Positions 2,943 to 62,302 of a stretch of DNA of 64,000 nucleotides are shown here, in pieces (position 1 is the first letter of the stretch; each line of letters opens with the position of its first letter). Under the pieces are notes generated by a model, which saw only the letters and a list, made by a program, of their open reading frames with translations, ran no database searches and was not told where the DNA came from. A program made the position numbers and the translations under genes. The stretch is from Microbacterium salitolerans (lineage in GTDB: Bacteria; Actinomycetota; Actinomycetes; Actinomycetales; Microbacteriaceae), in the NCBI RefSeq assembly GCF_019720895.1, contig NZ_JAHKSH010000001.1, positions 62,001 to 126,000 on the forward strand. The letters are read 5' to 3'.

Positions 2943-2963
2943 GTCTCCTTGAGGATCCGCGGG

Positions 2964-4526: not shown

Positions 4527-4585
4527 GTCGGGGCTCCTTCTTCGTGCGGTGTCGCTGTCAGGGGTGGGGCGTGCGGACACGTCTC

Positions 4586-35732: not shown

Positions 35733-36083
35733 GATGATGGCTTCCTGTTCTCGGGCGTCGATGCCGGAGTCGCGCGTTCGGGGGAGCAGTATGGGCAGAC
35801 TCTCCCATTTCTACAGAACGTGAATCTGTGGCCTATTGCTCGACGCTGATGCAATGGCAGATGACGGACGAGGCCCAGTACAGCACCGTCTGCGCCGGGA
35901 GTCAATGACGTTCCTCCCTTGAGTCCGGTTCGCACCCGTGGTTCACTGGCGGCGAATATAGGCAACACATTGGTGTCTGCCCGATCAAAAGAATGTTTTG
36001 TTCACATCCGCGCAGGCGGACGACGATGTTCCCTGTGCGGCACGACACGCGTCCGCGATGACGAGGACGCGGGAGGGACGATC
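35733..36083. other. Divergent promoter region between the phnD-like gene and a secreted hydrolase
   Basis: 351 bases without a gene. The stretch 35950-36005 is visibly AT-richer than its surroundings and holds a small dyad CAAAA-GAATG-TTTTG (35986-36000). That dyad is distinct from the TATCAA operator and may bind a different regulator. GGGAGGG at 36071-36077 is the ribosome site of the hydrolase. No RNA gene or further open frame is convincing. Confidence 0.4.
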
Positions 36084-37445
36084 ATGCCGAGAAGACGCAC
36101 GCACGCGATGGCGGCGGCGACGGGAGCAGCCGTTGCGGCCGCGCTCCTCACAGCAGGCCCGGCCACGGCTGCAGATACCGTGCACGGCACCCTGCCGAGC
36201 GGCGGCACCTACGTGCTGCACGTCCCCGACGCGTGGAACGGCACCGCGCTCGTGTGGAGTCCCGGCTATGGCGGGGGCGGAGGCACTCCCGTCGGCGGCC
36301 CGACCGACTCGCTCGTCGAATGGCTCGTCGACGAGGGGTACGTGGTCGCCGGCACGAGCAGCGCGAGCGGAGGGTGGGCCGTCGAGGCGCTGCTCGCCGA
36401 TCAGCCGGCTGTCGTCGATGCGATCGAGGTCGAGGTGGGCGAGCCCGACGATGTCGTCGCGTGGGGCGCGTCGATGGGCGGGCAGGTATCTGCGGCGCTC
36501 ATGGAGGCCCGCCCCGACGTGTTCGACGCGGCCCTGCCGCTCTGCGGATCCGTCGCCGGTGCGATCCCCATGCTCAACGGATCCCTCGATGGCACGTTCG
36601 CCCTGCGGATGCTGCTCGCGCCGGACGATGATCGCCTCGAGCTCGTCGACGTGCGGGACGAGATGAGCCGCCAGGCCGCGTTCCGCGAGGTCGTCGACGA
36701 GGCGCAGGCGACGCCGGAAGGACGGGCGCGCATCGCCTTGGCCGCGAGCCTCGCGCAGGTTCCCACCTGGACTCAGCCCGGGACGCCGGAGCCAGGCGGG
36801 CGGGACTGGGACGCGCAGCAGGAGCAGCTCTACGACGCCTTCATGTGGGGCGTCGTCTCGCCGCGGCAGCCTCTCGAGGAGCGCGCCGGCGGCGTGTTCT
36901 CGTGGAACACCGGTGTCGACTATGCGGCGGGTCTGGCGGGGTCGCCGAACGCGCGGCTCGTGCGCGCGCTCTATGCGGAGGCCGGCCTCGACCTGAGGGC
37001 GGACCTCGCGGCGATCGACGGCGGTGACCGCATCTCGGCGGACGCGGACGCGGTCGCCTACATGCAGCGCAACGCGACGCCGACGGGCGATATCGCCGGC
37101 CCGGTGCTCACCCTCCACGAGACCGGTGACACCGCGCCGACGGTCACGCAGGCGCGCACCTACGCCGATCGCGTGCGCGCGAACGGCGACGCCGCGCTCC
37201 TGCGGCAGGCGTTCGTCGATCGACCCGGCCACTGCGACTTCGCAGATGCGGAGGTCGCGGCCGTCCTGTCGGCGCTCCAGACGCGGCTCGACACCGGCCG
37301 GTGGGCGAACTTCGCGACCCCGCGCGCACTCGATGCCGCCGCCGACGAGATCGCCGCGTCGAGCGGTCTCGCGCGCAGAGACGAGGGATTCGCGCAGATC
37401 GTTCCGGACCGCATGCTGCGCCCTGAGCGGGAGGAGATCCGATGA
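36084..37445 (+). CDS. Secreted alpha/beta hydrolase, paralogue 1
   Basis: 453 residues from the ATG at 36084. A Sec signal peptide ends near residue 31 (AGPATAADT). The pattern of this paralogous group is GTLPSGGTYVLHVPDAWNGT at the N-terminus, the nucleophile elbow WGASMGGQ, a middle lid domain containing VFSWNTGVDYAAGL, and a catalytic His in RPGHCDFADAEVAAVL. Three such genes lie in this island. They would act outside the cell on an ester or amide polymer or conjugate. The substrate is unknown. It overlaps paralogue 2 by four bases. Confidence 0.85.
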   Translation: MPRRRTHAMAAATGAAVAAALLTAGPATAADTVHGTLPSGGTYVLHVPDAWNGTALVWSPGYGGGGGTPVGGPTDSLVEWLVDEGYVVAGTSSASGGWAVEALLADQPAVVDAIEVEVGEPDDVVAWGASMGGQVSAALMEARPDVFDAALPLCGSVAGAIPMLNGSLDGTFALRMLLAPDDDRLELVDVRDEMSRQAAFREVVDEAQATPEGRARIALAASLAQVPTWTQPGTPEPGGRDWDAQQEQLYDAFMWGVVSPRQPLEERAGGVFSWNTGVDYAAGLAGSPNARLVRALYAEAGLDLRADLAAIDGGDRISADADAVAYMQRNATPTGDIAGPVLTLHETGDTAPTVTQARTYADRVRANGDAALLRQAFVDRPGHCDFADAEVAAVLSALQTRLDTGRWANFATPRALDAAADEIAASSGLARRDEGFAQIVPDRMLRPEREEIR

Positions 37446-38791
37446 CGCGGGCGCGCAGGACCATCGCAGGAGTCTGCGCGGCGTTCGCCGTCGCCGCGCC
37501 GGTCGTGGTCGCCGCTCCGGCGGGCGCCGCCGATGAGATGACGGCCGATGGCACCCTGCTCGGCGGGGCGACCTACGCACTCCACAAGCCCAGCGACTGG
37601 AACGGCGACCTCGTCGTCCTGCCCGGGCGTCCGGACCTCGACACCCCGTCGGTCGACTGGCTGACGGATGCGGGCTACGGCGTGATCGGCTACGACCTCA
37701 GCGACGACTGGGATCTCCTGCAGGATCGCGACAACGCAAGTGCCGCGTACCGCGCATTCGGTGAAGCGGCCGGGGTCGCGCCCGACAGCGCCGTCGTCGC
37801 GGGCCGATCGCAGGGCGGCCTGACGACGCGCATCATCGTCGACGCGCAGCCTGACTGGCTCGACGGCGCGCTTCCGATGTGCGGTGGCGGTGCGGGCAAC
37901 ATCAGCACGTGGAACTACAAGCTCGACACCGCGTTCGCACTGCGCGAGCTCGTGGATCCGAGTTCGACGATGCAGATCGTCGGCATCCACGACGCGGGCG
38001 CTGAACTGGCCGCGATGACCGATCTCGTCGACATGACGGGATCATCGACGGAGGGGCGCGCTCGGGCGGCCCTCGCCGCCGCGCTCGCCAAGATCCCCGC
38101 CGTCGATCCGGCGTCGGGGGAGCCGCTCGCCGATCTGGACGCGCGCATCGACCGATACCTCGAGCACCTCCCGTTCGCCATGGGCTCCCACGTGCGCGTC
38201 GGCTACGAGCGCACCGTCGGCGGCGTCTTCTCGTGGAACGACGACGTCGACTACGCGGACGAGCTGCGCGCCTCGGGGCGGTGGAGCGAGGTCGCCGGGG
38301 CGTACCGGGCGGCGGGGCTCGACCTGCGCGACGATCTCGAGACCCTCGCGCGGGCGGAGCGGATCTCGGCGGACCCCGAGGCGGTCGGCTTCGTCGAGCG
38401 CACCTCGACGTTCACGGGGGAGCTCGACGTCCCGGTCCTGTCGCTGCACACGACGGGCGACGGCGCCGGATCCACGCAGGACGACGACGCGTACGCCGAG
38501 ACGGTTCGCGCGGCGGGGGACAGGGCGATGCTGCGCCAGCTGACCGTCTCCGCTGACGGGCACTGCACCTTCACGGCGGCCGAGGAAGCGGTCGCTGTGA
38601 GCGCCCTGTTCGAACGCATCCGCAGCGGCCGCTGGTCGTCGATGGCGCCGGCGAGGCTCGAGGTTCGTGCCGACGAGCTGCGTCAGGCGGCGTCGGCGGA
38701 ACTCGGCGATGTGCGCTTCCTCCAGCGCGCCCCGCACGGAGCGCCCGCACGGATGTGGGACATCCGCGACTGGGGGACCTACACGGGCTGA
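37442..38791 (+). CDS. Secreted alpha/beta hydrolase, paralogue 2
   Basis: 449 residues with a signal peptide ending near residue 30 (APAGAADE). Same architecture as paralogue 1: GTLLGGATYALHKPSDWNGD, nucleophile elbow AGRSQGGL, lid segment VFSWNDDVDYADEL and a catalytic His in ADGHCTFTAAEEAVAV. The elbow differs from the GxSMGG of the other two copies, so specificity may differ. It is translationally coupled to paralogue 1 and followed by a hairpin terminator. Confidence 0.85.
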   Translation: MTRARRTIAGVCAAFAVAAPVVVAAPAGAADEMTADGTLLGGATYALHKPSDWNGDLVVLPGRPDLDTPSVDWLTDAGYGVIGYDLSDDWDLLQDRDNASAAYRAFGEAAGVAPDSAVVAGRSQGGLTTRIIVDAQPDWLDGALPMCGGGAGNISTWNYKLDTAFALRELVDPSSTMQIVGIHDAGAELAAMTDLVDMTGSSTEGRARAALAAALAKIPAVDPASGEPLADLDARIDRYLEHLPFAMGSHVRVGYERTVGGVFSWNDDVDYADELRASGRWSEVAGAYRAAGLDLRDDLETLARAERISADPEAVGFVERTSTFTGELDVPVLSLHTTGDGAGSTQDDDAYAETVRAAGDRAMLRQLTVSADGHCTFTAAEEAVAVSALFERIRSGRWSSMAPARLEVRADELRQAASAELGDVRFLQRAPHGAPARMWDIRDWGTYTG

Positions 38792-38893: not shown

Positions 38894-38914
38894 AATATCA
38901 ATCCATATGATACT
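38894..38914 (+). promoter_or_regulatory. TATCAA-N5-TTGATA operator 3 (amino-acid-type ABC / CapA / CoA operon)
   Basis: TATCAA 38896-38901, spacer TCCAT, ATGATA 38907-38912, with AA and CT flanks. One mismatch to the dyad. GATACT (38909-38914) can be the -10. It lies 53 bases upstream of the binding-protein start and would control the eight-gene run to 46235. Confidence 0.7.
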
Positions 38915-38966
38915 TTCTCGATGCGCAACGACCCGCGCCTCATTCACGAAGATGTGGAGACGTCCG

Positions 38967-39878
38967 ATGAAGCTCACCCGAATCGCGACCCCCGCCGCTC
39001 TTGCGGTCGCGGCCCTCACTCTCGCGTCCTGCTCCCCGTCCGGCGGCGACGAGGCGGCTGACGACGCGACAGGCGGCGCCTCGGCCGACGCGCCGCTCTA
39101 CGAACAGCTGCCCGACGAGATCAAAGACGCTGGTCAGATCACGATGGCCGGCGACACCCATCCGCCCTATCGCACGATCGAGGAGGACGGATCCTTCACG
39201 GGAATCGACCCCGATCTGCAGGCCGCGCTGTCCGAGGAGCTGGGCGTTCCGTTCGTGTTCGAGACGGCCTCCGGGCTCGACGCGATGCTCACCGGCATGC
39301 TCTCCGGCCGCTATGACGCGTTCAACGGTCCCGTGCGAGCGACGCCCGAGCGCCAGGAGCAGTTCGATGCGATCGTCTGGATGACGACGCGCACGTCGTA
39401 CGTCTACCTCGCCGAGCGGGCCGACGAGCTCTCGGATCCCGAGGCCCTCTGCGATTCCCGGGTCGCCGGTGTGACGGGATCCGTCTCCGAGTCGCAGCTC
39501 GAGCACTATGCGGAGTGGTGTGACAGCAACGGTCTCGGAGCGCCGGAGTTCATCGGCCTCGCCGACTCGAACGCGACCTTCCTCGCGGTGAACTCCGATC
39601 GCGCCGACTACGCCGCGACGACGCAGGGCGGCGCCATCGACCTGCAGGCGGCGGACCCCGACACGTACGAGTACGTCGTGCAGACCGATGAGCAGGGGGC
39701 CGGTGTCGACCAGCTCGCGATGTTCCTCCCCAAGGACATGGGGCTCGCCGAGCCGATGCTCGCGGCCTTCGAGAACATCTTCGACAACGGCGAGTACGAC
39801 CGGATCATGGAGGAGTGGGGCATCTCCGACGTCGCCGTCGACGCGCCCGTGCTGAACCCGACGACGGAGGCCGAGTGA
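38967..39878 (+). CDS. Extracellular solute-binding lipoprotein, family 3 (polar amino-acid type)
   Basis: 303 residues from the ATG at 38967. The lipobox ends at Cys22 (LTLASC). Family 3 features are TMAGDTHPPYRTIEEDGSFTGIDPDLQAALSEELGV, MLTGMLSGRYDAFNGPVRATPERQEQFD, and AMFLPKDMGLAEPMLAAFENIFDNGEYDRIMEEWG. It delivers an amino acid or small organic acid to the following permease. It begins the operon that continues through the CapA-like protein, the CoA-transferase and the dehydratase-like pair. Confidence 0.92.
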   Translation: MKLTRIATPAALAVAALTLASCSPSGGDEAADDATGGASADAPLYEQLPDEIKDAGQITMAGDTHPPYRTIEEDGSFTGIDPDLQAALSEELGVPFVFETASGLDAMLTGMLSGRYDAFNGPVRATPERQEQFDAIVWMTTRTSYVYLAERADELSDPEALCDSRVAGVTGSVSESQLEHYAEWCDSNGLGAPEFIGLADSNATFLAVNSDRADYAATTQGGAIDLQAADPDTYEYVVQTDEQGAGVDQLAMFLPKDMGLAEPMLAAFENIFDNGEYDRIMEEWGISDVAVDAPVLNPTTEAE

Positions 39879-40792
39879 CGGTCATGGCACCCGCGACGAT
39901 CCACACGAACCCGGCTGCCGAGGCGGTCGACGTCGCGACGGCGCGACCACGGGTCCGGCCTGGCCGGATCATCGGCGGCGCACTCATCCTTCTCGTTGCG
40001 GCGAGCATCGTCTGGTTCCTCGTCAGCAACGAGCGGTTCGAGTGGGACGTCGTGGGCTCCTACCTCTTCAGCCCGAGCGTGCTCATGGGCCTGGGCATGA
40101 GCCTCGCGCTCACCGCGATCGGGATGGTGCTCGGGTCGATCCTGGGCACGTTCCTCGCAGCGGGTCAGCTGAGCGACTTCCTCCCCCTCAAGCTCGCCTG
40201 CATCGCGTTCGTCGGCTTCTTCCGCGGCGTCCCGCCTCTCGTGCAGCTCATCTTCTGGTACAACCTCGCCTACCTGGTTCCCCGGATCGAGGCCGGCGTG
40301 CCGTTCGGACCGGAGCTGTTCAGCTGGTCGACGAACGACATCATCACGCCGCTGACGGCCGCCATCATCGGCCTCTCGCTGCACGAGGCGGCGTATATGG
40401 CGGAGATCATCCGCGGGGGGATCCTGTCGGTCGACCAGGGGCAGCGCGACGGCGCCGCGGCCATGGGATTCAGTCGCTGGCACACCTTCACCCGCGTCAT
40501 CCTCCCGCAGGCGATGCGCGTCATCCTGCCGCCGACCGGGTCTCAGGTCATCGCGCTGCTCAAGGGCACATCGCTCGTGTCGGTGATCGCGATGGGCGAC
40601 CTGCTGCACGCCGTGCAGGTGATCTACAACCGCACCTACGAGGTCGTGCCGATGCTGGTCGTTGCGGTCATCTGGTACCTCGTCGTCGTCACCGTGCTGA
40701 CGATCGTGCAGCGCCGCGTCGAGGACCACTTCGGCCGCGGATCCGCCAGGACGCCCGTCGCCCGCACGCGCCCGAAGGAGATCGCAGAGTGA
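39875..40792 (+). CDS. Amino-acid-type ABC transporter permease (HisM/GlnP-like)
   Basis: 305 residues from a GTG overlapping the upstream stop; an ATG at 39884 is the alternative. A 50-residue N-terminal region with one helix precedes the typical permease domain (VLMGLGMSLALTAIGMVLGSILGTFLA; FFRGVPPLVQLIFWYN; EAA loop DGAAAMGFSRWHTFTRVILPQAMR). A single permease gene suggests a homodimeric channel. Confidence 0.92.
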   Translation: MTVMAPATIHTNPAAEAVDVATARPRVRPGRIIGGALILLVAASIVWFLVSNERFEWDVVGSYLFSPSVLMGLGMSLALTAIGMVLGSILGTFLAAGQLSDFLPLKLACIAFVGFFRGVPPLVQLIFWYNLAYLVPRIEAGVPFGPELFSWSTNDIITPLTAAIIGLSLHEAAYMAEIIRGGILSVDQGQRDGAAAMGFSRWHTFTRVILPQAMRVILPPTGSQVIALLKGTSLVSVIAMGDLLHAVQVIYNRTYEVVPMLVVAVIWYLVVVTVLTIVQRRVEDHFGRGSARTPVARTRPKEIAE

Positions 40793-41622
40793 ACATCGCA
40801 GAGGAGTCAGGGCTCATCGTCCAGCCCCAGCGTGCCGAGGAGCAGCCCGTCGTCGAGGTGACGGGCGTGCGCAAGCGCTTCGGCGACGACGACGCGCTCG
40901 ACGGCGCCACCATGAGCGTCTACGAGGGCGAGGTGGTCGCGATCCTCGGCCCCTCCGGGTCGGGCAAGTCGACGCTCGTGCGCTGCATCGACCAGCTCGA
41001 GACGATCGACGGCGGATCCATGCGACTCGACGGCGAGCTGCTCGGATTCGAGGAGATCGGCGGGCACCTGCGCCCCATGACGGACGCGGGGCGGCAGCGG
41101 CAGCGGCGACGCATGAGCATGGTGTTCCAGCAGTTCAACCTGTTCCCGCACTGGACGGTGCTGCGCAACGTGACCGAGGCCCCGATCCATGTGCACGGCG
41201 TCCCGCCCGCCGAGGCGAGGGCGCACGCGCTCGACCTGCTGGGCCGCGTGGGACTCGCCGAGAAGGCCGATGCGTATCCGAAGCAGCTCTCGGGCGGCCA
41301 GCAGCAGCGCGTCGCGATCGTGCGCTCGGTCGCGGTGGATCCGCGGATCCTCCTGTTCGACGAGCCGACGAGCGCGCTCGATCCCGAGCTCGTCGACGAG
41401 GTGCTGCAGACGATGAAGCAGCTCGCCCAGACGGGACGGACGATGATCGTCGTCACGCACGAGCTCGACTTCGCGCGCCACGTGGCAGATCGCTGCGTCT
41501 TCATGTCCGACGGCCGGATCATCGAGGACCGTCCCGCCGACGCGTTCTTCGCGGATCCGCAGTCGGAGCGCCTGCGCACCTTCCTCGCGCGTTCGGGGCG
41601 CGCCGACGCCGAGGCCTCCTGA
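40789..41622 (+). CDS. Amino-acid-type ABC transporter ATP-binding protein (GlnQ-like)
   Basis: 277 residues from a GTG overlapping the permease stop. Walker A is GPSGSGKST, Q-loop MVFQQFNLFPHWTVL (the FNLFPH sequence is diagnostic for polar amino-acid importers), signature LSGGQQQR, Walker B ILLFDEPTSALDP and H-loop VTHELDFARHVADR. Its stop codon overlaps the CapA-like start. Confidence 0.94.
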   Translation: MNIAEESGLIVQPQRAEEQPVVEVTGVRKRFGDDDALDGATMSVYEGEVVAILGPSGSGKSTLVRCIDQLETIDGGSMRLDGELLGFEEIGGHLRPMTDAGRQRQRRRMSMVFQQFNLFPHWTVLRNVTEAPIHVHGVPPAEARAHALDLLGRVGLAEKADAYPKQLSGGQQQRVAIVRSVAVDPRILLFDEPTSALDPELVDEVLQTMKQLAQTGRTMIVVTHELDFARHVADRCVFMSDGRIIEDRPADAFFADPQSERLRTFLARSGRADAEAS

Positions 41623-42752
41623 TGGTCGTCGTCCACGCGACCGGCGACCTCGTTCTCGAGCGCGACGACTCGCGTCCGCTGTTCGAGTTCGCCGCGCCCG
41701 CGCTCGCCGCGGCCGACGTCGTGATCGGCCACCTCGAGGTGCCGCACACGGAACGCGGCGTGCAGATGACGGCGGACGTGCCTGCCATCCCTGCGCCTCC
41801 GACGGCGCTCGACGGCGTCGCGGAGGCGGGCTTCGACATCGCGACGCTCGCGGGCAACCACGTCTTCGACCTCGGCCCGGACGGCATCGCCGACACCCGT
41901 CGGCACTGCGCGGAGCGGGGAATCCTCACGACGGGGGCCGGCGGCGATGCCGACGAGGCATGGGCTCCTGCGGTGATCGAGCGGGCGGGCCGCAGGGTCG
42001 CCGTCATCAGCGTCAACTGCGTCGGCCCGCGCGAGACGCGCGCCGGATCGGCCAAGCCCGGCTGCGCGAGCGTCGATGTCGTCACGCACTACGAGACCCG
42101 CGGCGCGAACCCCGGCGGTCCGCCTCGCGTGTTCACGTTCGCAGATCCGGGCGATCTGCGGATCCTGTCGGACGCGATCGCCGCGGCCGCGCGCGACGCC
42201 GACGTCGTCGTCGCGCTGCACAAGGGCCTCGTCCATCAGCCGGTCGACATCGCCGCCTACGAGCACGAGATCTCCCGGGCGGCGATCGACGCCGGAGCCG
42301 CCGCCGTCATCGGCCACCACGCGCACATCATGAAGGGCGTCGATGTCTACCGCGGGCGTCCGATCTTCCACGGCCTCGGCAACTTCGCGACCGTCACGCG
42401 CGCACTCGGCGGATCCGCCGACGACAGCCCCGAGCGACGTGCGTGGGCGCGCGAGCGCGTGCGCCTGTTCGGGTTCGCCCCGGATCCGAGCACCCCCGAC
42501 TACCCCTTCCACCCCGACAGCCGGAACACGGCCATCGCGGCAGTCGAGATCACCGATGAGGGCGTCGACGCCGCCCTGATCCCGTGTCGCATCGACGCGC
42601 GGTCCCGCCCCGTGCCGCTCTCGCGTTCCGACGGCGGCGAGGACGTCGCCGACTACATCCGCACCATCACCCGCGACGCCGGACTCGGCACCGAGTTCGC
42701 GTGGCGTGGTGACCACCTCCGCATCACAGGATCGAAGGAGACGACCCGATGA
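41622..42752 (+). CDS. Cytosolic CapA-like metallophosphatase-fold protein, copy 2
   Basis: 376 residues, starting inside the ATPase stop (TGATG). Same motifs as copy 1: HATGDLVLE, VIGHLEVPHTE, LAGNHVFDLG, NCVGPRET, VVVALHKGLVH and VIGHHAHIMKGVDVYRGRPIFHGLGNF. There is no signal peptide or anchor. It is translationally coupled to the importer before it and to the CoA-transferase after it, so it likely acts on the imported compound before CoA activation. A phosphatase, peptidase or amidase role is possible. Confidence 0.88.
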   Translation: MVVVHATGDLVLERDDSRPLFEFAAPALAAADVVIGHLEVPHTERGVQMTADVPAIPAPPTALDGVAEAGFDIATLAGNHVFDLGPDGIADTRRHCAERGILTTGAGGDADEAWAPAVIERAGRRVAVISVNCVGPRETRAGSAKPGCASVDVVTHYETRGANPGGPPRVFTFADPGDLRILSDAIAAAARDADVVVALHKGLVHQPVDIAAYEHEISRAAIDAGAAAVIGHHAHIMKGVDVYRGRPIFHGLGNFATVTRALGGSADDSPERRAWARERVRLFGFAPDPSTPDYPFHPDSRNTAIAAVEITDEGVDAALIPCRIDARSRPVPLSRSDGGEDVADYIRTITRDAGLGTEFAWRGDHLRITGSKETTR

Positions 42753-43984
42753 CGACGAAGCCCCTGGAAGGAAAGACGGTCATCGACCTCACGACCGCTC
42801 TCGCAGGCCCCTACGCGACGCTGCTGCTCGCGGGGCTCGGGGCGCGTGTCATCAAGGTCGAGAACCCGACGCGGGGCGGCGACTCGTCGCGCAACAACTC
42901 GCCGTACGTCACGTCCGACGGCCTGAGTCTGCGCCGCACCTCGGACGACGACATGTCCGTGTCGATGATGCTGCGCGGCCGCGGCAAGCAGTCGATCACC
43001 CTCAACCTCAAGCACCCCGACAGCCGCGCGGTGCTGTTCGACCTCGTCAAGGACGCCGACATCCTCGTCGAGAACTACAGCTCCGGCGTCACGAAGCGGC
43101 TCGGCATCGACTACGAGGCGGTGCGGCCGCTGAACGAGAAGCTCATCTACACGTCGATCAGCGGGTTCGGCGCGACGGGCGATCACGGCGATCGCAAGGC
43201 GATGGACACGATCATCCAGGCCCTCAGCGGCGTCATGACGACGGCGGGGGAGCCAGGGGATCCGCCCGTGCGCTTCGGGCTCCCCGTCGGCGACCTCGTC
43301 GCCCCCCTGTTCGGAGTGATCGGAACGCTCGCGGCGAGCCTGCAGGCCGAGCGGACGGGTACCGGCCAGCACGTCGACGTGTCGATGCTGGGCGCGCTCA
43401 CGTCGCTCGTGGCCTGCGAGCCGTTCGATGCGCTCGAGTCGGTCGGCTTCCCGCTGCGCACCGGCGCCTACGTTCCGCGCCTCGCCCCCTTCGGCACGTT
43501 CCGCGCGGTCGACGGCTGGTTCGCGATCTGCGCGCCGACCGATCAGTTCTCGGCGGGTGTCCTGCGTGCGCTGGGGCGCGAGGATCTGCTTGGGTCTGAC
43601 GAATTCGGGTCGCGCGACGCGCGCGTCGCGAACGCCGACCGCCTGCACGGGCTGATCGCGGGATGGGCGGCGGAGCACACGCTGGGGGAGGTGCTCGCGG
43701 CCCTCGACGCGAACGGCGCGCCGGCGGCCCCCGTGCGCACGACGGCGGAGGCCGTGCGCGACAAGCAGGTCACCGATCGGCGCGAGGTCGTTCCGCTCGT
43801 GCATCCCAAGTTCGGCCACTTCGACGGTCTGTACGGCTCCGGCGTCCCCGTGGTCTTCTCGGGGACCGAGGCCGACCTGTCGGCGCCCGCCCCCAAGCTC
43901 GGCGAGCACACGGACGACATTCTGCGCGGCCTGGGCTACGACGATGCGCGCATCGCCGCGCTGCGCGAGGATCGGGTGCTGTGA
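42749..43984 (+). CDS. Class III (CaiB/BaiF family) CoA-transferase
   Basis: 411 residues, overlapping the previous stop. The family start GKTVIDLTTALAGPYATLLLAGLGARVIKVENPT, the VENYSSGVTKRLGIDYEAV segment, the catalytic aspartate Asp153 (RKAMDTIIQALSG) and the ISGFGATG loop are present. It would move CoA between acyl groups with an aspartyl-CoA intermediate. Immediately downstream lie two dehydratase-family genes, the same order as CoA-transferase plus dehydratase in FldABC or HgdAB-type 2-hydroxyacid pathways. Acceptor and donor are unknown. Confidence 0.93.
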   Translation: MTTKPLEGKTVIDLTTALAGPYATLLLAGLGARVIKVENPTRGGDSSRNNSPYVTSDGLSLRRTSDDDMSVSMMLRGRGKQSITLNLKHPDSRAVLFDLVKDADILVENYSSGVTKRLGIDYEAVRPLNEKLIYTSISGFGATGDHGDRKAMDTIIQALSGVMTTAGEPGDPPVRFGLPVGDLVAPLFGVIGTLAASLQAERTGTGQHVDVSMLGALTSLVACEPFDALESVGFPLRTGAYVPRLAPFGTFRAVDGWFAICAPTDQFSAGVLRALGREDLLGSDEFGSRDARVANADRLHGLIAGWAAEHTLGEVLAALDANGAPAAPVRTTAEAVRDKQVTDRREVVPLVHPKFGHFDGLYGSGVPVVFSGTEADLSAPAPKLGEHTDDILRGLGYDDARIAALREDRVL

Positions 43985-44997
43985 CCAGCACTCCTCGCGT
44001 CGGCGTCGTCGGCGCCGACCTGCCCCGGCAGGTCGCGCTCGCGGCCGGTGCCGTCCCCACGCGGCTGCTCGGGGCGTGGGAGGGCGACACGTCGCGCGAG
44101 GCACGAGAGCTGCTCGGTGCGATGGACGTCGTCGCCGTGCGCATCCTCGACGAGATCCTCGCGGGCGCGCACGATCACCTCGCGGGTCTCGTCGTCTGCA
44201 ACGACTCGTCGGCGAACCTCCGCCTCTTCTATGTGCTCCGCGTCCTCGCGGAGCGCGGGCGCGTCCGGCTCCCCGTCTCGCTGTTCGACGCGCCTCGCGG
44301 ATCCGGGTCCCCGCGAGAGCACTTCGTCGCGCGCCGCATCGCGCGGCTGACCGAGTTCTGCGAGGCGGTCACCGGATCGGGCCCCAGCGACTTCGCGGCC
44401 GCTGCGGCGTCGGAGGACGCACTGGGGGGCGCCCTGCGCGGACTGCGCGCGCGGCGCAGGAGCGGGCGCGTCACCGGGGCCGCGGCGCTCGACGCCTATC
44501 GTGCCGCTGCGACCCTCGCTCCCGAGGAGGCGGCTCTCGAGGTCGACCGCGTCGACCGCTCGGCCGCCGGGATCCCCGTCGTGGTGACGGGCGGATCCCA
44601 CCCTGATTCGTCGGTCTACGCGGCGATCGAGAACGAGGGGCTCCTCGTCGTGGGAGACGACCACGACACGGGCGACGCCGCGTGGATCGGACCCACCGGA
44701 CGCGACGCCGCCGAGATCGCGCGACTCCATGCGGCCCGTCCGCCGCTCGCGCAGCGGTCGCGCTCCTCCGAGCGGGCGGCTGCTCTGGCCGCGCTGGTGA
44801 CCGAGACGAAGGCCAGAGGGGTGATCTCACTCGCGCGGGAGCTCGACGACGCGCCCGCGTGGGACCTCGCCGCACAGCGTGCCGCCATCGATGTCCCCCT
44901 CGTCGCCCGCACACGCATCGCCCCCGACGCGGCGCGCACTCAGGCGGTCGATGCCGCGCGCGAGCTGCGGGATCGCATCACGGAGGAGGGCGCATGA
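43981..44997 (+). CDS. 2-hydroxyacyl-CoA dehydratase family protein lacking most iron-sulfur cysteines, subunit 1
   Basis: 338 residues from a GTG overlapping the CoA-transferase stop. The fold is recognisable: an N-terminal VGVVGADLPRQVALAAGAVPTRLLG, a central VVCNDSSANLRLFYVLR, a second-lobe IPVVVTGGSHPDSSVYAAIENEGLLVVGDDHDTGD, and a C-terminal ARGVISLARELDDAPAWDLAAQRAAIDVPLV. In the oxygen-sensitive enzymes (HgdB, FldC, BcrB/C) cysteines in these three places bind the 4Fe-4S cluster. Here only the first (VVCND) survives; GDDHDTGD and ARELDDAP have none. No activator ATPase gene is in the window. The function must therefore differ from the classical radical dehydratase. Confidence 0.75.
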   Translation: MTSTPRVGVVGADLPRQVALAAGAVPTRLLGAWEGDTSREARELLGAMDVVAVRILDEILAGAHDHLAGLVVCNDSSANLRLFYVLRVLAERGRVRLPVSLFDAPRGSGSPREHFVARRIARLTEFCEAVTGSGPSDFAAAAASEDALGGALRGLRARRRSGRVTGAAALDAYRAAATLAPEEAALEVDRVDRSAAGIPVVVTGGSHPDSSVYAAIENEGLLVVGDDHDTGDAAWIGPTGRDAAEIARLHAARPPLAQRSRSSERAAALAALVTETKARGVISLARELDDAPAWDLAAQRAAIDVPLVARTRIAPDAARTQAVDAARELRDRITEEGA

Positions 44998-46235
44998 GCG
45001 CCGACCGGCTGCGCAGCGCCCACGAGGCCACGCGTTATCAGAAGCAGTGGTTCCTCGACCTCGCCGAGCGCGCGCGAGCGGGTGAGCCCCTCGCGATCGT
45101 CAACGCCGACGCACCGCACGAGATCCTCCGTGCCCTCGACATCCCGTACGTCGTGACGCAGTGGTGGTCGTCCATCATCGCCGCGAAGCGCATGAGTCCC
45201 GCCGCGCTGTCGCACGTGGCGGCGCGCGGGCTGCCCGACTTCAGCCTGCAGTACGACGCGATCCCGCTCGGCGAGCAGGATCTCGCCGACGCCGACCGGC
45301 CGTGGGGAGGCCTGCCGCAGCCGACCTTCGCCATCGCGGAGCGTTCGGGCGACATCACGCAGAAGATCTTCGAGCAATGGGGCGAACGCGATGGCACCGA
45401 GACGTTCCTCCTGTCGCGCACGGGAGGGGATCCCGCGCCGCACGCCTGGTGGGATCTGGTGCCGCACCAGTGGGAGGCGGCCTTCGGATCCGACCGCCTC
45501 GACCTGCTGCAGGACGAGATCGGCGAACTGATCACGTGGCTGGAGGAGCGCACGGGGCGCATCCTCGACACCGGCCGACTCGAGCGGATCCTCGAGCTCG
45601 GCAACGAGCAGGCGGAGTGGAATCGGCGCACGCGCGATCTCATCGCGAGCGCCCGGCCGACGCCCGTCGCTGTGAACGACACGATGCCCGCGGTCATGGT
45701 GCCGCAGTGGCACCGCGGCACCGAGTGGGCGGTGGGGGCGGCGAAGCGGCTGCACGACGAGGTCGCGGAGCGCGTGGAGGAGGAGACGGCGATCTGCCCC
45801 GACGAGCGCGTGCGCCTCATGTGGGTCGGCCGCGGCCTGTGGAGCGATCTCGACATGTACCGCCGATTCCAGGAGGAGTTCGGCGCGGTGTTCGTGTGGT
45901 CGATGTACCTGGCGATCGCGGCCGACGGGTACCTCCGGTACGGGGACGATGCGACTCGCACTCTCGCCGCGCGCTTCGTCGGCATCACCGACCAGCTGTA
46001 CATGCCGCCGTGGTCGAGCGAGTGGTACGTCAAGGAGGCGCTCTCCCACGGTGTCGACGGCGTCGTGCACCTGGTCGCGGATGACGCCGCCGGGGCCGGC
46101 CTCATCTCCGAGGCGCTCGAGGACGAGGGGATCCCCGTTCTCGAGATCCGCGCGAACAACGCCGACGAGCGCTCCGCGGCGGCCGCCCGGATCCCCGAGC
46201 GCATCGAGGAGTTCCTGCGCACGCGCGTGCGCTGA
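44994..46235 (+). CDS. 2-hydroxyacyl-CoA dehydratase family protein lacking iron-sulfur cysteines, subunit 2
   Basis: 413 residues, overlapping subunit 1 by four bases. It follows the dehydratase-family layout: a helical N-terminus, a first lobe EPLAIVNADAPHEILRALDIPYVVTQWWSSIIAAKRM, a helical middle and a second lobe MWVGRGLWSDLDMYRRFQEEFGAVFVWSMYL, then a C-terminal GVDGVVHLVADDAAGAGLIS. The only cysteine (ETAICPDE) is not at a cluster position. With subunit 1 it likely forms a heterodimer. A cluster-free dehydratase, hydratase or binding role is possible; no activity is proven. Confidence 0.72.
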   Translation: MSADRLRSAHEATRYQKQWFLDLAERARAGEPLAIVNADAPHEILRALDIPYVVTQWWSSIIAAKRMSPAALSHVAARGLPDFSLQYDAIPLGEQDLADADRPWGGLPQPTFAIAERSGDITQKIFEQWGERDGTETFLLSRTGGDPAPHAWWDLVPHQWEAAFGSDRLDLLQDEIGELITWLEERTGRILDTGRLERILELGNEQAEWNRRTRDLIASARPTPVAVNDTMPAVMVPQWHRGTEWAVGAAKRLHDEVAERVEEETAICPDERVRLMWVGRGLWSDLDMYRRFQEEFGAVFVWSMYLAIAADGYLRYGDDATRTLAARFVGITDQLYMPPWSSEWYVKEALSHGVDGVVHLVADDAAGAGLISEALEDEGIPVLEIRANNADERSAAAARIPERIEEFLRTRVR

Positions 46236-46275: not shown

Positions 46276-46857
46276 CTACTCGTCGTCGGTGCGGCGCTCG
46301 GCCCTGATCCGCGCTTGGGCGAGGCGCGAGGGGATGTGGCGGGGGCGCACCGTCGAGGTGCGCTGTGCGATCGCGGCGGCCTCGGCTTCGTCGTCGCCGA
46401 AGTAGCCTCCGGCGAGCACGTCGGCGGAGGCCTGCAGGATGTCGCGGAGCGAGCCGTCCGGCGGCCCTCCGAGCGCGGCGATGAGCCGCTCCTCGTGCTC
46501 GCGCAGACGCTCGGTGCAGCGGGCGAGCACGGCCCAGCCCTCCTCCGTGAGCTGCACGAGTCGGATCCTCCTGTTGCGGGGGTGGTCGCCGCGCGAGACG
46601 AGCCCCTGCTCGATCAGCTCGTTCGAGACGGTGTGCGCCGCCTGGGCGCTCACGAACGTGCGCCGCGCGAGCTGTGCGTTCGAGAGGGGCAGCCCCTCTC
46701 CGAGCACCTGCAGCACGACGAACTGCGACAGCGTGACGCCCTCGGCGAGCGCGGTGTTCTCCGTGAAGCGCGTGAACGCTCGCGCGAGTCGGTAGCTGCT
46801 GTAGCCGAGCCGGGTCGTGGCCGGTTCGCCGCGCGGGTCTCGAGTGATGTCATCCAC
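46276..46857 (-). CDS. MarR-family transcriptional regulator
   Basis: 193 residues from a GTG. The winged helix-turn-helix is clear: LSQFVVLQVLGEGLPLSNAQLARRTFVSAQAAHTVSNELIEQGLVSRGDHPRNRRIRLVQLTEEGW. A 40-residue basic C-terminal tail is extra. It is divergent from the secreted hydrolase at 47091, and operator copy 4 lies between them, so it is the leading candidate for the protein that binds the TATCAA dyads across the island. MarR proteins typically respond to aromatic or CoA-linked ligands. Confidence 0.92.
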   Translation of the reverse strand: MDDITRDPRGEPATTRLGYSSYRLARAFTRFTENTALAEGVTLSQFVVLQVLGEGLPLSNAQLARRTFVSAQAAHTVSNELIEQGLVSRGDHPRNRRIRLVQLTEEGWAVLARCTERLREHEERLIAALGGPPDGSLRDILQASADVLAGGYFGDDEAEAAAIAQRTSTVRPRHIPSRLAQARIRAERRTDDE

Positions 46858-46987
46858 GATGAGATCCTACGCGTGCGGGGACGCGGCCCTCCGAATCGCG
46901 CCGCCGCCGATCATGGCGTACCCGCCGCTCGGCCGCGTCGAGGGGCGTCTCTCGCCGATTGACTAAGGCGGCTTCTGCTGCCTCAAT

Positions 46988-47008
46988 AATATCAATGGGG
47001 TTGATATT
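46988..47008. promoter_or_regulatory. TATCAA-N5-TTGATA operator 4 (marR / secreted hydrolase)
   Basis: AATATCAA-TGGGG-TTGATATT, a perfect dyad at 46990-47006, in the divergent region between the MarR gene (start 46857) and the hydrolase (start 47091). GATATT (47003-47008) can be the -10 of the hydrolase promoter. Confidence 0.75.
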
Positions 47009-47090
47009 TACCCGAAGTGGTGCCACTGTCTTCCCAGATCGCCGCCCGGCGATCTTCTGCCGACGATGGAGTTGGACGAGGAGTACCACG

Positions 47091-48419
47091 ATGGTCATTG
47101 CACGACGCGCGTTGAAGATCGGCATCGCCGCCATGACAGCCGGGGCGCTGGTGGGCGCGATGGCGCCGACGGCGGTCGCGGAAGAAGGTGACGAGATCAT
47201 CGAGGGTCAGCTCGCCGACACCACGCCGTATCGATTCATCGTCCCGGACGACTGGAACGGCACGGTGTTCGTGAACCTCGACTTCGCGTCGGGCTCGCCG
47301 TCCGACGCGCAGCAGGCGCTCATCGACGACGGCGCCGCGTACGGCGGCACGACCCGCAACGTGACCGGGTGGCGTCTCGGCGACGCGGTCGACAATCAGA
47401 TCGAGGCGCTCGACGCGCTCGCGGCGGAGACCGGAGAGCCCGAGCGCGCCATCGCGATGGGGAGCTCGATGGGCGGCATGATCGCCGCGACCACCGGGGA
47501 GCTGCATCCCGACCGCATCGACGGCGTCCTCGCCGCGTGCGGCGGGTTGTCGGGAACCGTGTCGCAGTGGAATCAGAAGCTCGACACGGTCTTCGTGCTC
47601 GCCCAGCTGATCGACCCGGACCTTCCCGTCGTCGACATCCCTGAGGACATCGCGGCTGCCCGCGCCCTGTGGCAGGGCGCGCTCGCCGAAGCGCAGGAGA
47701 CGTCGGAGGGACGCGCGCGGATCGCCCTCGCGTCGGCGATCGGCCAGCTTCCCGCGTGGTCGCCGAGCGTCGAGGATCCGGACCCGCGGGATCCCGCACA
47801 GTACGAGGCCGGATGGTACGGATCCCTCTCGGGCGATCCGCTGCCGTACATCGGTCAGGCGATGAGCAGTCGACGCTCCGGCACCGAGATGGCCGGGGGA
47901 CTGCCCTCGTGGAACACCGGAGTCGACTACGCGGAGCAGCTGCGGAAGGCATCGCCCGAGGCGCGACGCGTCGTGGCGGCGCTGTACGAGGAGGCCGGGC
48001 TGTCGCTCGATGCCGATCTCGGCATCGTGAACGGCGCCGACCGCGTCGCGGCCGACCCCGAAGCCGTCGAGCGCTTCGCCGAGAACTACGAGTTCACCGG
48101 CGCGATCTCCGTCCCCACGCTGACGCTCAACAACGTGGGCGACCAGATCTCGACGGTCGCCCAGCAGTCCGCCTACGAGGAACGTGTGAAGAAGGCGGGG
48201 AACGCGAGCCTGCTGCGTCAGACGTATGTGGGGTCCGCCGGGCACTGCGTGTTCAGCGACGCGGAGATGCTCACGGCCGCGCACGTGCTCCTCGATCGTC
48301 TCGACACCGGGCACTGGGGAGGCGGCGCCGTCGCGCGCAACCTCAACGCCGCCGCCGAGGAGCTCGACATGGGAGAAGCGCGCTTCCTGAGCTTCCGCCC
48401 CGACCGGTTCAATCGGTGA
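47091..48419 (+). CDS. Secreted alpha/beta hydrolase, paralogue 3
   Basis: 442 residues from the ATG at 47091, with GAGGAG upstream. Signal peptide to about residue 30 (APTAVAEE). Same family as the genes at 36084 and 37442: GQLADTTPYRFIVPDDWNGT, elbow MGSSMGGMIAA, lid segment LPSWNTGVDYAEQL and a catalytic His in SAGHCVFSDAEMLTAA. It is the first gene downstream of operator 4, seven bases before the larger esterase. Confidence 0.86.
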   Translation: MVIARRALKIGIAAMTAGALVGAMAPTAVAEEGDEIIEGQLADTTPYRFIVPDDWNGTVFVNLDFASGSPSDAQQALIDDGAAYGGTTRNVTGWRLGDAVDNQIEALDALAAETGEPERAIAMGSSMGGMIAATTGELHPDRIDGVLAACGGLSGTVSQWNQKLDTVFVLAQLIDPDLPVVDIPEDIAAARALWQGALAEAQETSEGRARIALASAIGQLPAWSPSVEDPDPRDPAQYEAGWYGSLSGDPLPYIGQAMSSRRSGTEMAGGLPSWNTGVDYAEQLRKASPEARRVVAALYEEAGLSLDADLGIVNGADRVAADPEAVERFAENYEFTGAISVPTLTLNNVGDQISTVAQQSAYEERVKKAGNASLLRQTYVGSAGHCVFSDAEMLTAAHVLLDRLDTGHWGGGAVARNLNAAAEELDMGEARFLSFRPDRFNR

Positions 48420-48425
48420 TCCGCC

Positions 48426-50567
48426 ATGCGACGTGACACGAACCGGATGACGATCATCACGCGGCGCGCTCTCGCCGTGGCAGCCGGGGCCGGCATGGCC
48501 GCGACCCTCGCGATCGGGGTGCCCGCCAGTGCTGAGGAGGGGACGCCGGAGGGGATCCCGAGCGCCGCGCCGCCCGCGGCCTTCTTCGAGGAACCCGACC
48601 TGCCCGCCGCAGACCACTGGCCCTTCTCCGAGGACTTCCCGCGCACGTCGGGCACGTCGAGGTATGACGACGGAGCACTGCTCTGGACCGACTGGCTGTA
48701 CGACGACACGGGCGACGGATCCTTCGACTATCGCGCCGAGTCGGCCGAATCGAACGGTGCGGATGTCTTCCGCGCGGGCGTCGGCGTGCACCGTGATCGC
48801 TCCTTCTGGCGGGTCGACTGGAACACGCTCGTCGACCCGGACCTGCCGCTGGCCGTCTGGGGCCTCGATACGGACGACGACCCCACCACGGGCACGGCGA
48901 CGTGGCCCGCGGAGGCCGGGGTGTCGTCGCCCGGAATGGACGCCTTCCTCACCGTGTCCTCCCGCGGCGTGCGGCTCGAGGACGTCGCGGCGGGAACGTC
49001 GAGCGACCTCACGGCGCGCGGCGCCGAGGTCGTCGTCGACGAGGAATCGCGATCGTTCATCGTGTCGATCCCGCGATCCGCTCTGCGCGTCAACGGCGAG
49101 TGGACGGTGCGTCTCGCGACCGGTACGGCAGACGAGTCGGGCGAGGCGTTCGCCTCCCCGCCCGGAGACCCGGACGCGCGCGTCTACAACGCGGCATTCC
49201 GCACGAACGACCAGGAGAACGCGAACCGCGCGGGCAGTCAGAAGGCGACCACCTGGAACAACGGAGCGCAGAGCGAGGCGCTCTCGAACGGCGACATCGC
49301 CCCGTTCTCGCTGCACCTCGACTGGCGGCGCCTCGCGCGCGGCGAGGTCGAGCCCGAGCCGGATCCGGCTGGGTTCTCGGTGCGGTGGTACGTCTCGTCG
49401 GTCGAACTCGGCCAGGGGCTCCACCCCGATGCCCGCGCCCCGCAGGGCCAGGCGCCGACCACGGATCCGCGCGTCTACGGACGTGTGCAGCCGTACACCG
49501 TCTACGTCCCGGAGTCGTACGATCCCGCCGTCCCCGCGCCGCTCACGCTGCTCCTTCACGGCGGGGGCGGGAACCACAACAGCTTCCGCGGCGACCAGGA
49601 GTCGACGCTCCACACCTCGGTGTGCGAGGAGCGGGGGTCGATCTGCGTCGCGCCCCTCGGCAGAGGAGACGCCACGTGGTTCGTCAATGAGGCCGAGCTC
49701 GACGTGTGGGAGGTGTGGAACCGCGTCGCCGGCACCTACGCGATCGATCCCGACCGCACCACCGTCGCCGGATGGTCCATGGGAGGCGTGGGAGCCACGC
49801 GCCTCGCGGTCAATCACCCGGATGTGTTCGCCGGCGTCGGCATCGTGTCGGGCGCGGGATACATGAACGCCGTCGCGGGGCGCGATGGCGCCGAGGACCC
49901 GCTCCGGGTCGAGAACCTCGGGGCGATGCGGGTGTTCATGGACGCCGGGACCGCCGACATCGCGGAGCAGAACACCCGCGACTGGGGAGCCGCCTTCGAG
50001 TCGGCGGGCGTGCCGTACCGCGCGCACTACTACGCCGATGCGACGCACGGTCACTTCGGGGTCGTCGGCTGGCCCGAGTTCGCCGACCGCGTCGACGACG
50101 CGGTGCGCGAGACGTCGCCTCCGAGCATCGCGTACCGATGGGATCCGCGTGAGGAGCGGGAGGATCTCGGCATCACGATGGACTCCGCCTACTGGATCGA
50201 CCAGATCGAGTCCCGCGACGCGGACGCGACGTGGAGCCGGGTCACGGCCCGATCCGGGGCGCTCGACACCGTCGTCGCGGAGCCGGTGGTGCACGAGACC
50301 TCGGGCGAGTACTCGGGCCGCCACACCGAGATCCGCGAGCTCGTGCACGAGCAGGTGGGGATGCGAGAGCCGTCGAACGAGCTGGAGCTCGACCTGACGA
50401 ACATCGCGGCGGCTGCGGTCGACCTCGACGCGGCGGGGCTCGGGGAGGCGGAGCAGGTGGTGCTGGACATCGTCACGGATGGTCCGACCGACATCGTGCT
50501 GCGCGGTTCCGGAGCCGAGCGCGTCCTGCCGGTCGACGCCGGAAGCCACCGCATCGTCGTGGAGTGA
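48426..50567 (+). CDS. Large secreted esterase with N-terminal beta-rich domain (PHB-depolymerase / prolyl-oligopeptidase type)
   Basis: 713 residues; an internal ATG at 48447 would give a tidier Tat-like signal (ITRRALAVAAGAG). After the signal, residues about 60-320 form a beta-rich region with VGVHRDRSFWRVDWNTLVDPDLPLAVWGLDTD, resembling DOMON or carbohydrate-binding modules. The catalytic domain starts near 350 (PYTVYVPESYDPAVPAPLTLLLHGGGGNHNSF), with the elbow AGWSMGGVGATR and a His in DATHGHFGVVGWPEF. A C-terminal beta domain follows. It is predicted to act on a polymeric or conjugated ester outside the cell, with the hydrolase next to it. Confidence 0.85.
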   Translation: MRRDTNRMTIITRRALAVAAGAGMAATLAIGVPASAEEGTPEGIPSAAPPAAFFEEPDLPAADHWPFSEDFPRTSGTSRYDDGALLWTDWLYDDTGDGSFDYRAESAESNGADVFRAGVGVHRDRSFWRVDWNTLVDPDLPLAVWGLDTDDDPTTGTATWPAEAGVSSPGMDAFLTVSSRGVRLEDVAAGTSSDLTARGAEVVVDEESRSFIVSIPRSALRVNGEWTVRLATGTADESGEAFASPPGDPDARVYNAAFRTNDQENANRAGSQKATTWNNGAQSEALSNGDIAPFSLHLDWRRLARGEVEPEPDPAGFSVRWYVSSVELGQGLHPDARAPQGQAPTTDPRVYGRVQPYTVYVPESYDPAVPAPLTLLLHGGGGNHNSFRGDQESTLHTSVCEERGSICVAPLGRGDATWFVNEAELDVWEVWNRVAGTYAIDPDRTTVAGWSMGGVGATRLAVNHPDVFAGVGIVSGAGYMNAVAGRDGAEDPLRVENLGAMRVFMDAGTADIAEQNTRDWGAAFESAGVPYRAHYYADATHGHFGVVGWPEFADRVDDAVRETSPPSIAYRWDPREEREDLGITMDSAYWIDQIESRDADATWSRVTARSGALDTVVAEPVVHETSGEYSGRHTEIRELVHEQVGMREPSNELELDLTNIAAAAVDLDAAGLGEAEQVVLDIVTDGPTDIVLRGSGAERVLPVDAGSHRIVVE

Positions 50568-50582
50568 CGTCGGCCGCCGAGC

Positions 50583-50644
50583 GCGGACATCGAACGCGAT
50601 GGGGGACACCGAAATCGGTGTCCCCCATCGACGTCGATGTCCGC
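50583..50644. terminator. Long hairpin after the secreted esterase
   Basis: A 62-base palindrome (outer arms GCGGACATCG and CGATGTCCGC; inner perfect arms CGATGGGGGACACCGA / TCGGTGTCCCCCATCG) separates the esterase from the metallophosphoesterase. Confidence 0.85.
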
Positions 50645-50775
50645 GACCCGCCCGACAACTCCCCGATCCCGTCATCCGGCCATCGGCGACACGTCACGGG
50701 CCGTTCGGGCGCCGGACACCTGTCGCCCTCATCCTGGGGCCTGCCCTCCCCCGGATCACACGAAAGGCATCATCG

Positions 50776-57484: not shown

Positions 57485-59803
<2,319 letters not shown>

Positions 59804-59804
<1 letters not shown>

Positions 59805-60679: not shown

Positions 60680-60699
60680 CGTTGCGCTTCCGGATCGAA

Positions 60700-60720
60700 T
60701 ATAACTATGGGCATAGGGAA
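60700..60720 (-). promoter_or_regulatory. Probable metF-purU-ligM promoter with small dyad
   Basis: An AT-rich patch upstream of metF contains CTATGGGCATAG (60705-60716, a near-perfect dyad) next to TATATT-like sequence on the minus strand, a plausible -10 with overlapping operator. The nearby PadR and LysR genes are possible binders. Confidence 0.4.
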
Positions 60721-60766
60721 ATGTCTAGGGGTAATCGAGAATCTGTCTCCACACCCCGAGACGCGC

Positions 60767-60801
60767 GCACGCCCCCGGCCTGGGATGGGCCGGGGGCGTG
60801 C
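60767..60801 (-). terminator. Hairpin after the second O-demethylase gene
   Basis: A perfect 14-base stem (60767-60780 with 60788-60801, GCACGCCCCCGGCC) with a seven-base loop, 13 bases after the stop codon of the minus-strand gene. Confidence 0.9.
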
Positions 60802-60813
60802 GGAGCGGAGGGA

Positions 60814-62187: not shown

Positions 62188-62259
62188 GATTCCTCCTTGA
62201 ATCGGTGTCGTGCGCCGTCGGGCCCACGTGTCTTCAGTCTTGACGCGACCGCCCTCACC

Positions 62260-62276
62260 TGTAAAACATGAGTTCA
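62260..62276. promoter_or_regulatory. Candidate LysR-type binding site
   Basis: TGTAAAACATGAGTTCA, a loose TG-N13-CA dyad in the 115-base divergent region between the O-demethylase gene and the LysR gene. It has the placement expected for a LysR recognition site; no other copy is present to support it. Confidence 0.3.
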
Positions 62277-62302
62277 CGACGTGTCACCCCAGGAGAACTT
62301 GC

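Follow-up and report, generated by a model that had tools for sequence, protein, structure and literature searches.

A predicted cluster-free pair of benzoyl-CoA reductase/2-hydroxyacyl-CoA dehydratase-type subunits encoded next to a CoA-transferase in Microbacterium salitolerans

Introduction

Enzymes of the benzoyl-CoA reductase/2-hydroxyacyl-CoA dehydratase (BCR/HAD, HGD-D) family have been described as radical enzymes that are tied to iron-sulfur clusters, to low-potential electrons driven by ATP and to anoxic life, and in one such system, FldABC, a CaiB-family transferase stands beside the dehydratase subunits. The same order of genes was found on a stretch of 64,000 nucleotides from Microbacterium salitolerans (assembly GCF_019720895.1, contig NZ_JAHKSH010000001.1, positions 62,001-126,000; hereafter the window, in whose own numbering coordinates are given unless a locus label precedes them). 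A sequence-only reading of this DNA had recognized a CaiB-type transferase followed by two dehydratase-family subunits at 42749-46235, and had proposed for the two subunits a possible iron-sulfur-free version with a different, oxygen-tolerant reaction. The order and the coordinates were right, and the proposal is supported at the level of sequence and predicted structure, with catalysis being putative. The pair is predicted to be a BCR/HAD variant without a cluster, with chemistry that is probably oxygen-proof and different from that of its iron-sulfur radical relatives.

Among the described systems, BzdO of class I benzoyl-CoA reductase was used as the reference for individual residues. In the excerpted text of PMC11971306, its cluster ligands are Cys95, Cys128 and Cys380, Glu65 and His131 act as acid-base residues next to Ser44, and the thioester oxygen is contacted by Tyr97, Tyr298 and Gln274. 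By titles and the first lines of abstracts in the open-licence literature, a scope that leaves most subscription papers outside, no cysteine-free pair from an aerobe was described.

Results

The transferase gene (42749-43984, + strand) codes for a CaiB-type, family III CoA-transferase of 411 amino acids (aa), and is followed on the same strand by the genes for subunit 1 (338 aa; 43981-44997; GTG start) and subunit 2 (413 aa; 44994-46235; ATG start), the start codon of each subunit gene overlapping the stop of the preceding gene by 4 bases. Both subunits score above the gathering cut-off of the Pfam family PF06050 (28.4), subunit 1 with 38 bits and subunit 2 with 119 bits. Relatives were collected by scanning one genome per species, and 80 loci were kept of the 90 relatives found. 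Two profiles of 25 sequences each, made from 24 of the 80 loci and the window, were compared with the solved structures. The subunit-2 profile (A1) matched MbdO (4.6e-31), BzdO (2.1e-24) and HadB (4.2e-24), and the subunit-1 profile (A3) matched BzdN (2.6e-43) and HadC (1.3e-32). With the AlphaFold model of subunit 2 (mean pLDDT 91.4, pTM 0.91), the top matches in Foldseek, taking the best entry of each, were MbdO (1.8e-17), BzdO (5.3e-17) and HadB (1.9e-15), all with TM scores by query of 0.81-0.82 (0.82/0.78 for BzdO and 0.82/0.84 for HadB), and partner subunits scored lower (TM 0.64 for 3o3m_B and 0.63 for 8s02_B). By these matches both proteins are assigned to the BCR/HAD superfamily, and the ranking identifies subunit 2 as the counterpart of the catalytic subunit (BzdO/HadB) and subunit 1 as that of its partner (BzdN/HadC). 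The two subunits presumably form a heterodimer, as suggested by the adjacent genes, by natural fusion of both in one open reading frame (ORF) at 13 of the 80 loci, and by the predicted model of one such fusion (L061 7870-10239; pLDDT 87.6, pTM 0.89), in which the linker is floppy.

The subunit-2 alignment comprises 81 rows; the locus L065 is cut by its contig end. All three cluster cysteines are absent from 74 rows, herein called Cys-free, and present in the other seven, called Cys-bearing. In the profile alignment with BzdO, Cys95 and Cys128 correspond to Leu85 (codon at 45246-45248, +) and Gly119 (45348-45350, +) of the window protein, and Cys380 to Asp364 (46083-46085, +); by MAFFT, a gap falls on this last cysteine with Asp364 beside the gap, the loop being deleted. 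The first column is Glu and the second Gly in 54 of the 74 Cys-free rows each, and Asp stands at or beside the third site in 70 of the 74. As the sequence-only reading had it, no cysteine is left at the cluster positions of subunit 2, and structural comparison, which it had named as one check of its proposal, showed the HadB/BzdO-type dehydratase fold with these positions empty. The only cysteine of the window protein, Cys268, lies outside the cluster columns. It is shared by 61 of the 74 Cys-free rows and by 4 of the 7 Cys-bearing rows and is not cluster-like; it was rejected as a compensating residue, and the alignment contained no compensating set. In all seven Cys-bearing rows the first motif (LCxYC) contains an additional cysteine, which, as a guess, might close an open iron site.

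For HadB, Glu55 and Ser37 are taken by us to be the catalytic residues, presumably equivalent to BzdO Glu65 and Ser44. Since the alignment to BzdO starts at residue 69, the latter two were mapped through HadB, with the result that Glu55 is replaced by Gln56 and Ser37 by Ala38 in window subunit 2; Gln also takes the Glu place in 81 of 81 rows. The second acid-base residue, His131 of BzdO, is replaced by Thr122, and Gln274 by Arg280 (45831-45833, +), an arginine in 71 of the 74 Cys-free and 2 of the 7 Cys-bearing rows. Both thioester tyrosines are kept throughout the 81 rows, Tyr97 as Tyr87 (45252-45254, +) and Tyr298 as Tyr305 (45906-45908, +). Besides Tyr87 and Tyr305, the residues invariant in all 81 rows are Glu43, Gln56-Trp57-Trp58 (45159-45167, +; in place of HadB Glu55-Asn56-Gln57), Gln238-Trp-His-Arg-Gly-Thr243 and Trp245 of the QWHRGTEW motif (residues 238-245; 45705-45728, +), Trp283 and Leu306, and those nearly so are Asn37 (77 of 81) and Ala38 (79 of 81). 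The Trp-His pair of the QWHRGTEW motif is absent from BzdO and HadB.

This Gln/Trp/His site is common to Cys-bearing and Cys-free rows, and its remodelling therefore appears to be independent of the cluster; the Glu presumed for the radical mechanism is already gone in all seven Cys-bearing rows. We infer that the chemistry of the subfamily had changed while the clusters were still present, with the pose of the acyl-CoA being kept. Variation of the site was met outside the 81 rows, namely Ser for Thr243 at L110, L111 and L112, and, in two Cys-free paralogues at L070, Glu at the Gln56 place of one and Asn-Tyr-Trp for Gln-Trp-Trp in the other.

Subunit 1 could be aligned for 72 of the 80 loci and the window (73 rows), the other eight loci giving no row by blastp (1e-3, ORFs of at least 150 aa). 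The window protein contains two cysteines, Cys73 and Cys127. The claim that it keeps one of three cluster cysteines did not stand, because Cys73 is three residues away from the column aligned with the second BzdN cysteine, which is Ser76, and neither cysteine is in register. That column holds Cys in 39 of the 73 rows; the third BzdN column is Asp in 72 rows, Asp289 in the window, and Ser in one. The cluster cysteine set was found in none of the 73 rows, and the six Cys-bearing relatives with an aligned subunit 1 lack cysteine at both of these columns. Subunit 1 as a whole is loosely conserved.

In a tree of 83 rows, obtained by quick search with long branches present, the 74 Cys-free rows form one side of a branch with SH-aLRT support of 98. 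For a more careful tree, L065 and the two L070 paralogues were removed from the 39 prepared rows; among the 36 that remained, the 26 Cys-free rows again lay on one side (support 90/99, not starred). Against a single loss, the two L070 paralogues are also Cys-free and stand outside the clade of the 83-row tree, on long branches; their genes, together with one recognized by eye as subunit-1-like, occupy L070 15298-19222 in a sphingomonad bin. A sphingomonad group (L110 7875-9161, L111 7671-9011 and L112 8154-9440) has kept cysteines 1 and 2 and lost cysteine 3, a state that, as judged from the aligned cysteines, is half-way in the loss. The loss of the cluster may therefore have been repeated or stepwise.

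The cassette is scattered in distribution: in samples of 199 genomes from the family (E 1e-30) and 396 from the phylum (1e-40), it was detected in 5 and 3 genomes, respectively, the own genome being counted in both, and the other three members of the genus within these samples had no cassette. For eight hand-chosen pairs of actinobacterial relatives, with the window not among them, dN/dS was 0.04-0.19 for subunit 2 (8 of 8 pairs), 0.08-0.20 for CaiB and 0.14-0.48 for subunit 1. These ratios indicate purifying selection on subunit 2 in the relatives.

The activase model TIGR00241 had no match anywhere in the host genome, which contains the window and is estimated to be 100% complete, so that the absence of an activator gene from the window is borne out genome-wide, and a hidden activase in the host was rejected by this model. 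The broader family PF01869 gave two matches in this genome, one of them over the cut-off (L003); an RpiR-like regulator adjoining its gene, recognized by eye, suggests a sugar kinase. The search for activase and haem-copper oxidase (COX1) covered 24 genomes of the 80 loci, selected by hand so as to represent the groups. TIGR00241 was found in none of the 17 Cys-free genomes, an absence that is weaker for the several tested genomes that are metagenome bins, and COX1 was found in all 17. Among the seven Cys-bearing genomes, a TIGR00241 match was present in four, exactly those without haem-copper oxidase, and the remaining three, all alphaproteobacteria, combine COX1 with the lack of an activase match. 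The oxygen-linked character ascribed to the host was likewise confirmed: its genome encodes haem-copper oxidase, and the window includes cytochrome bd (1896-4580, by eye) and oxygenase-type genes (P450, FAD-binding monooxygenase-type and catechol 2,3-dioxygenase-like).

The PF02515 match of the window CaiB (362.7 bits) spans positions 1-366 of the 366 of the model. Its putative catalytic residue, by analogy with formyl-CoA transferase, is Asp153 in the sequence AMDTI. All curated models of family III transferases scored far below their cut-offs for this protein, so that none of them names its acid. Overlapping the CaiB start is a gene for a CapA-like PGA_cap metallo-enzyme of 376 aa (41622-42752, +; PF09587, 174 bits), which aligns with the lasso-peptide epimerase MslH (1.5e-18). 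Compared with the MslH residues in the excerpted text of PMC10406935, Glu39, Asn79, His80, Asp83, His200 and His235 stand, as read from the alignment, at Glu44, Asn87, His88, Asp91, His259 and His295, whereas Gly202 takes the place of the ligand His261 and the aligned region does not include Asp11; epimerase activity is therefore not implied. A CapA-like epimerase feeding an (R)-acid is possible, unsupported as it is given the missing His261 equivalent.

Upstream of the CapA-like gene, an amino-acid-type ABC transporter, named by eye from its ORFs, occupies 38907-41622 (+), with the binding protein at 38907-39878, the permease at about 39884-40792 and the ATPase at about 40789-41622, the last two with provisional starts. 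A MarR-family regulator (46276-46857, -; PF12802/PF01047) follows subunit 2 and is also found near the cassette in close relatives. Partner genes were detected by tblastn in the DNA stretch around each locus, with thresholds of 150 bits for CaiB, 40 for subunit 1 and 150 for CapA. At 73 Cys-free loci, CaiB was found in 70, subunit 1 in 67 and CapA in 54, and at the seven Cys-bearing loci each of the three was found in five. Hence a clade with the same loss, as had been looked for next to CaiB and CapA-like genes, does exist, with CapA being usual rather than constant. The partner genes are the same with and without the cysteines and the operon is conserved across phyla; among the 54 Cys-free loci of actinobacteria, 41 also have the ABC transporter by blast co-occurrence.

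Around the related cassettes, neighbour families include P450, secreted-looking hydrolases and TRAP or ABC transporters, together with a PaaX-like group, named from its window member, in 37 of the 80 loci. Individual loci add a vanillate-type Rieske oxygenase (L084), a TRAP transporter (L058), an S15-type hydrolase (L075) and TonB receptors named by eye. In the window itself, 57485-62277 encodes a LigM vanillate/3-O-methylgallate O-demethylase (879 bits, cut-off 580) and a second demethylase related to the syringate demethylase (DesA-type); catechol 2,3-dioxygenase-like and 3-oxoadipyl-CoA thiolase-like genes are also present. These neighbours suggest plant or lignin-derived acids and name none of them. 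Substrates of the tartrate- or malate-ester type, considered from the dicarboxylate relatives of CaiB, were set aside as too weak to claim.

Several other observations were made in the surroundings. Between the two demethylases lies a gene for a protein with ACT and formyl-transferase domains. The segment 28910-35732 echoes the cassette, with a second CapA-like gene, a PaaX-type regulator, a P450 and an ABC transporter with a phosphonate-type binding protein. On either side of the cassette, at 35919-38791 and 46959-50567, are four proteins predicted to be of the alpha/beta-hydrolase type, whose starts look signal-like by eye; those at 37442-38791 and 46959-48419 have no Pfam family above cut-off, and 23 of the 54 Cys-free loci of actinobacteria contain relatives of one flanking hydrolase. 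Downstream of the hydrolases is a metallophosphoesterase (50479-51963; PF00149) with a Tat-like start by eye. Anaerobe-type bins have glycyl radical enzymes next to the cassette, and one also adjoins, unexpectedly, the Cys-free pair of Sphingomonas soli, a genome with haem-copper oxidase. They were located at L066 13749-16166 (-), L052 3-4403 and L060 11578-14058, with PF02901 and PF01228 in the three tested; near 18745 of L066 the start of another was seen by eye only.

Discussion

The pair is probably a cluster-free acyl-CoA heterodimer that performs polar, oxygen-tolerant chemistry within an aerobic carboxylic-acid cassette. In the scheme proposed, CaiB would load CoA onto an imported carboxylic acid, and this CoA could be recycled from the product. 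Subunits 1 and 2, with the BCR/HAD fold, would pair as a heterodimer that is devoid of clusters and has abandoned radical chemistry. The acyl-CoA would sit in subunit 2 as in BzdO, with Tyr87 and Tyr305 holding the thioester oxygen; Arg280 probably takes part and may help to hold the charged oxygen, and these contacts would stabilize an enolate in place of a ketyl radical. Acid-base catalysis could be carried out by the remodelled site, Gln56-Trp57-Trp58, Asn37 and His240-Arg241, together with the kept Glu43. We infer a CoA-ester substrate and a non-radical mechanism for the pair; the reaction type is a guess, and the substrate is guessed from the neighbours. A polar step such as elimination, isomerization or lyase cleavage would fit a CoA ester delivered by CaiB, provided that no radical is needed to make the substrate proton sufficiently acidic. 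Unless a radical is involved, an unactivated 2-hydroxyacyl-CoA is unlikely to be dehydrated, because its beta proton is, by the excerpted text of PMC11574389, too weakly acidic for protein bases. The setting would be an aerobic catabolic cassette for an imported acid, possibly dicarboxylic or derived from plant or lignin. More tentative is the wider proposal that a BCR/HAD branch in several aerobic phyla consists of iron-free acyl-CoA enzymes with enolate-type polar chemistry, in which Glu and Ser were replaced by the Gln-Trp-Trp and Trp-His-Arg site already in cluster-bearing relatives, and which drive an undescribed aerobic pathway for plant acids.

A number of points weigh against this picture. 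Extension of the BzdO alignment places Glu65 one residue off Gln56, and the Cys-free paralogue at L070 17663-19222 keeps Glu at the Gln56 place, so that loss of the cluster and loss of Glu were not strictly ordered. By alignment, His240 falls at a helix end beside the pantetheine and may therefore only bind CoA, and the facing of His240 or Arg280 towards the thioester is putative. CapA was missing from the surrounding stretch of 19 of the 73 Cys-free loci, subunit 1 evolves faster, and the search patterns were derived from the window protein, thereby favouring close relatives.

Other explanations were weighed on the same evidence. A non-catalytic role, in which the pair binds or senses acyl-CoA or acts as a scaffold while CaiB and the neighbours do the chemistry, would accord with the loss of the cluster cysteines and of the presumed catalytic Glu and Ser, and with the loose conservation of subunit 1. 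The subfamily-specific polar and aromatic motifs QWW and QWHRGT, invariant in 81 of 81 rows, exceed what a binder should need, however, and with the purifying selection on subunit 2 and the natural fusions they make such a role unlikely. A persisting oxidoreductase or radical activity, with another electron carrier such as flavin taking over from the clusters, is rather unlikely: the fold is kept, as are the contacts to the thioester, and, according to the excerpted text of PMC11574389, 2-hydroxyglutaryl-CoA dehydratase has a flavin beside its cluster, but the Glu and Ser that the radical mechanism uses for acid-base catalysis have been replaced, activase is without a match in the own genome and the 17 Cys-free genomes, and no flavin reductase was noticed beside the pair, without any search aimed at one.

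The frequent Glu at the first cysteine column and Asp around the third, the Asp at the third cysteine of subunit 1 in all but one row, and the common Cys268 could also be taken as signs of an unusual metal site with ligands from Glu, Asp or cysteines elsewhere. The window protein itself, with Leu and Gly at the first two columns and the third loop deleted, argues against this, as does the presence of Cys268 in Cys-bearing rows, which does not resemble compensation, and such a site is considered quite unlikely. Least credible of all, and rejected, is a functionless, decayed relic of an anaerobic pathway. The textbook cofactor ligands are lost and the presence in genomes is scattered, but the ORFs are intact and overlapping, the operon is conserved across phyla and subunit 2 is under purifying selection in relatives.

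If the reading as a cluster-free polar enzyme is true, the BCR/HAD scaffold can support non-radical chemistry, and Cys-bearing, partly Cys-bearing and Cys-free members are available for comparison. A conserved aerobic catabolic cassette of transporter, CapA-like protein, CaiB and the pair is also marked out. Automatic annotation is likely to name these genes dehydratase subunits, a label that may lead metabolic reconstructions astray.

Comparison with known systems

The window CaiB is a full-length member of the family III CoA-transferases, as are the succinate-glutarate, succinyl-CoA:mesaconate and formyl-CoA enzymes, and differs from them in falling far below the curated models. The double-cubane cluster protein DCCP shares the fold of subunit 2 as a more distant match (Foldseek 8.6e-12), but has, by the titles of its entries, a double-cubane cluster and a partner, DCCP-R.

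With HadBC, HgdAB and FldBC, the pair has in common the two homologous subunits and, for HadB, a close structural match to subunit 2. The parallel to FldABC drawn by the sequence-only reading is upheld for gene order and fold, but the same reaction is not to be assumed, the catalytic residues having changed as well: unlike these dehydratases, the pair lacks cluster cysteines and an activase match, carries Gln and Ala for HadB Glu55 and Ser37, and belongs to hosts with haem-copper oxidase. Class I benzoyl-CoA reductase (BzdNO/MbdNO) gave the best Foldseek matches for subunit 2 and the best or good profile matches for both subunits, and BzdO shares its two thioester tyrosines with window subunit 2. 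The window pair differs from this reductase in the absence of the three BzdO cluster ligands and of the cysteine set of BzdN, in the replacement of His131 and, as deduced through HadB, of Glu65 and Ser44, and in a host genome without an activase match.

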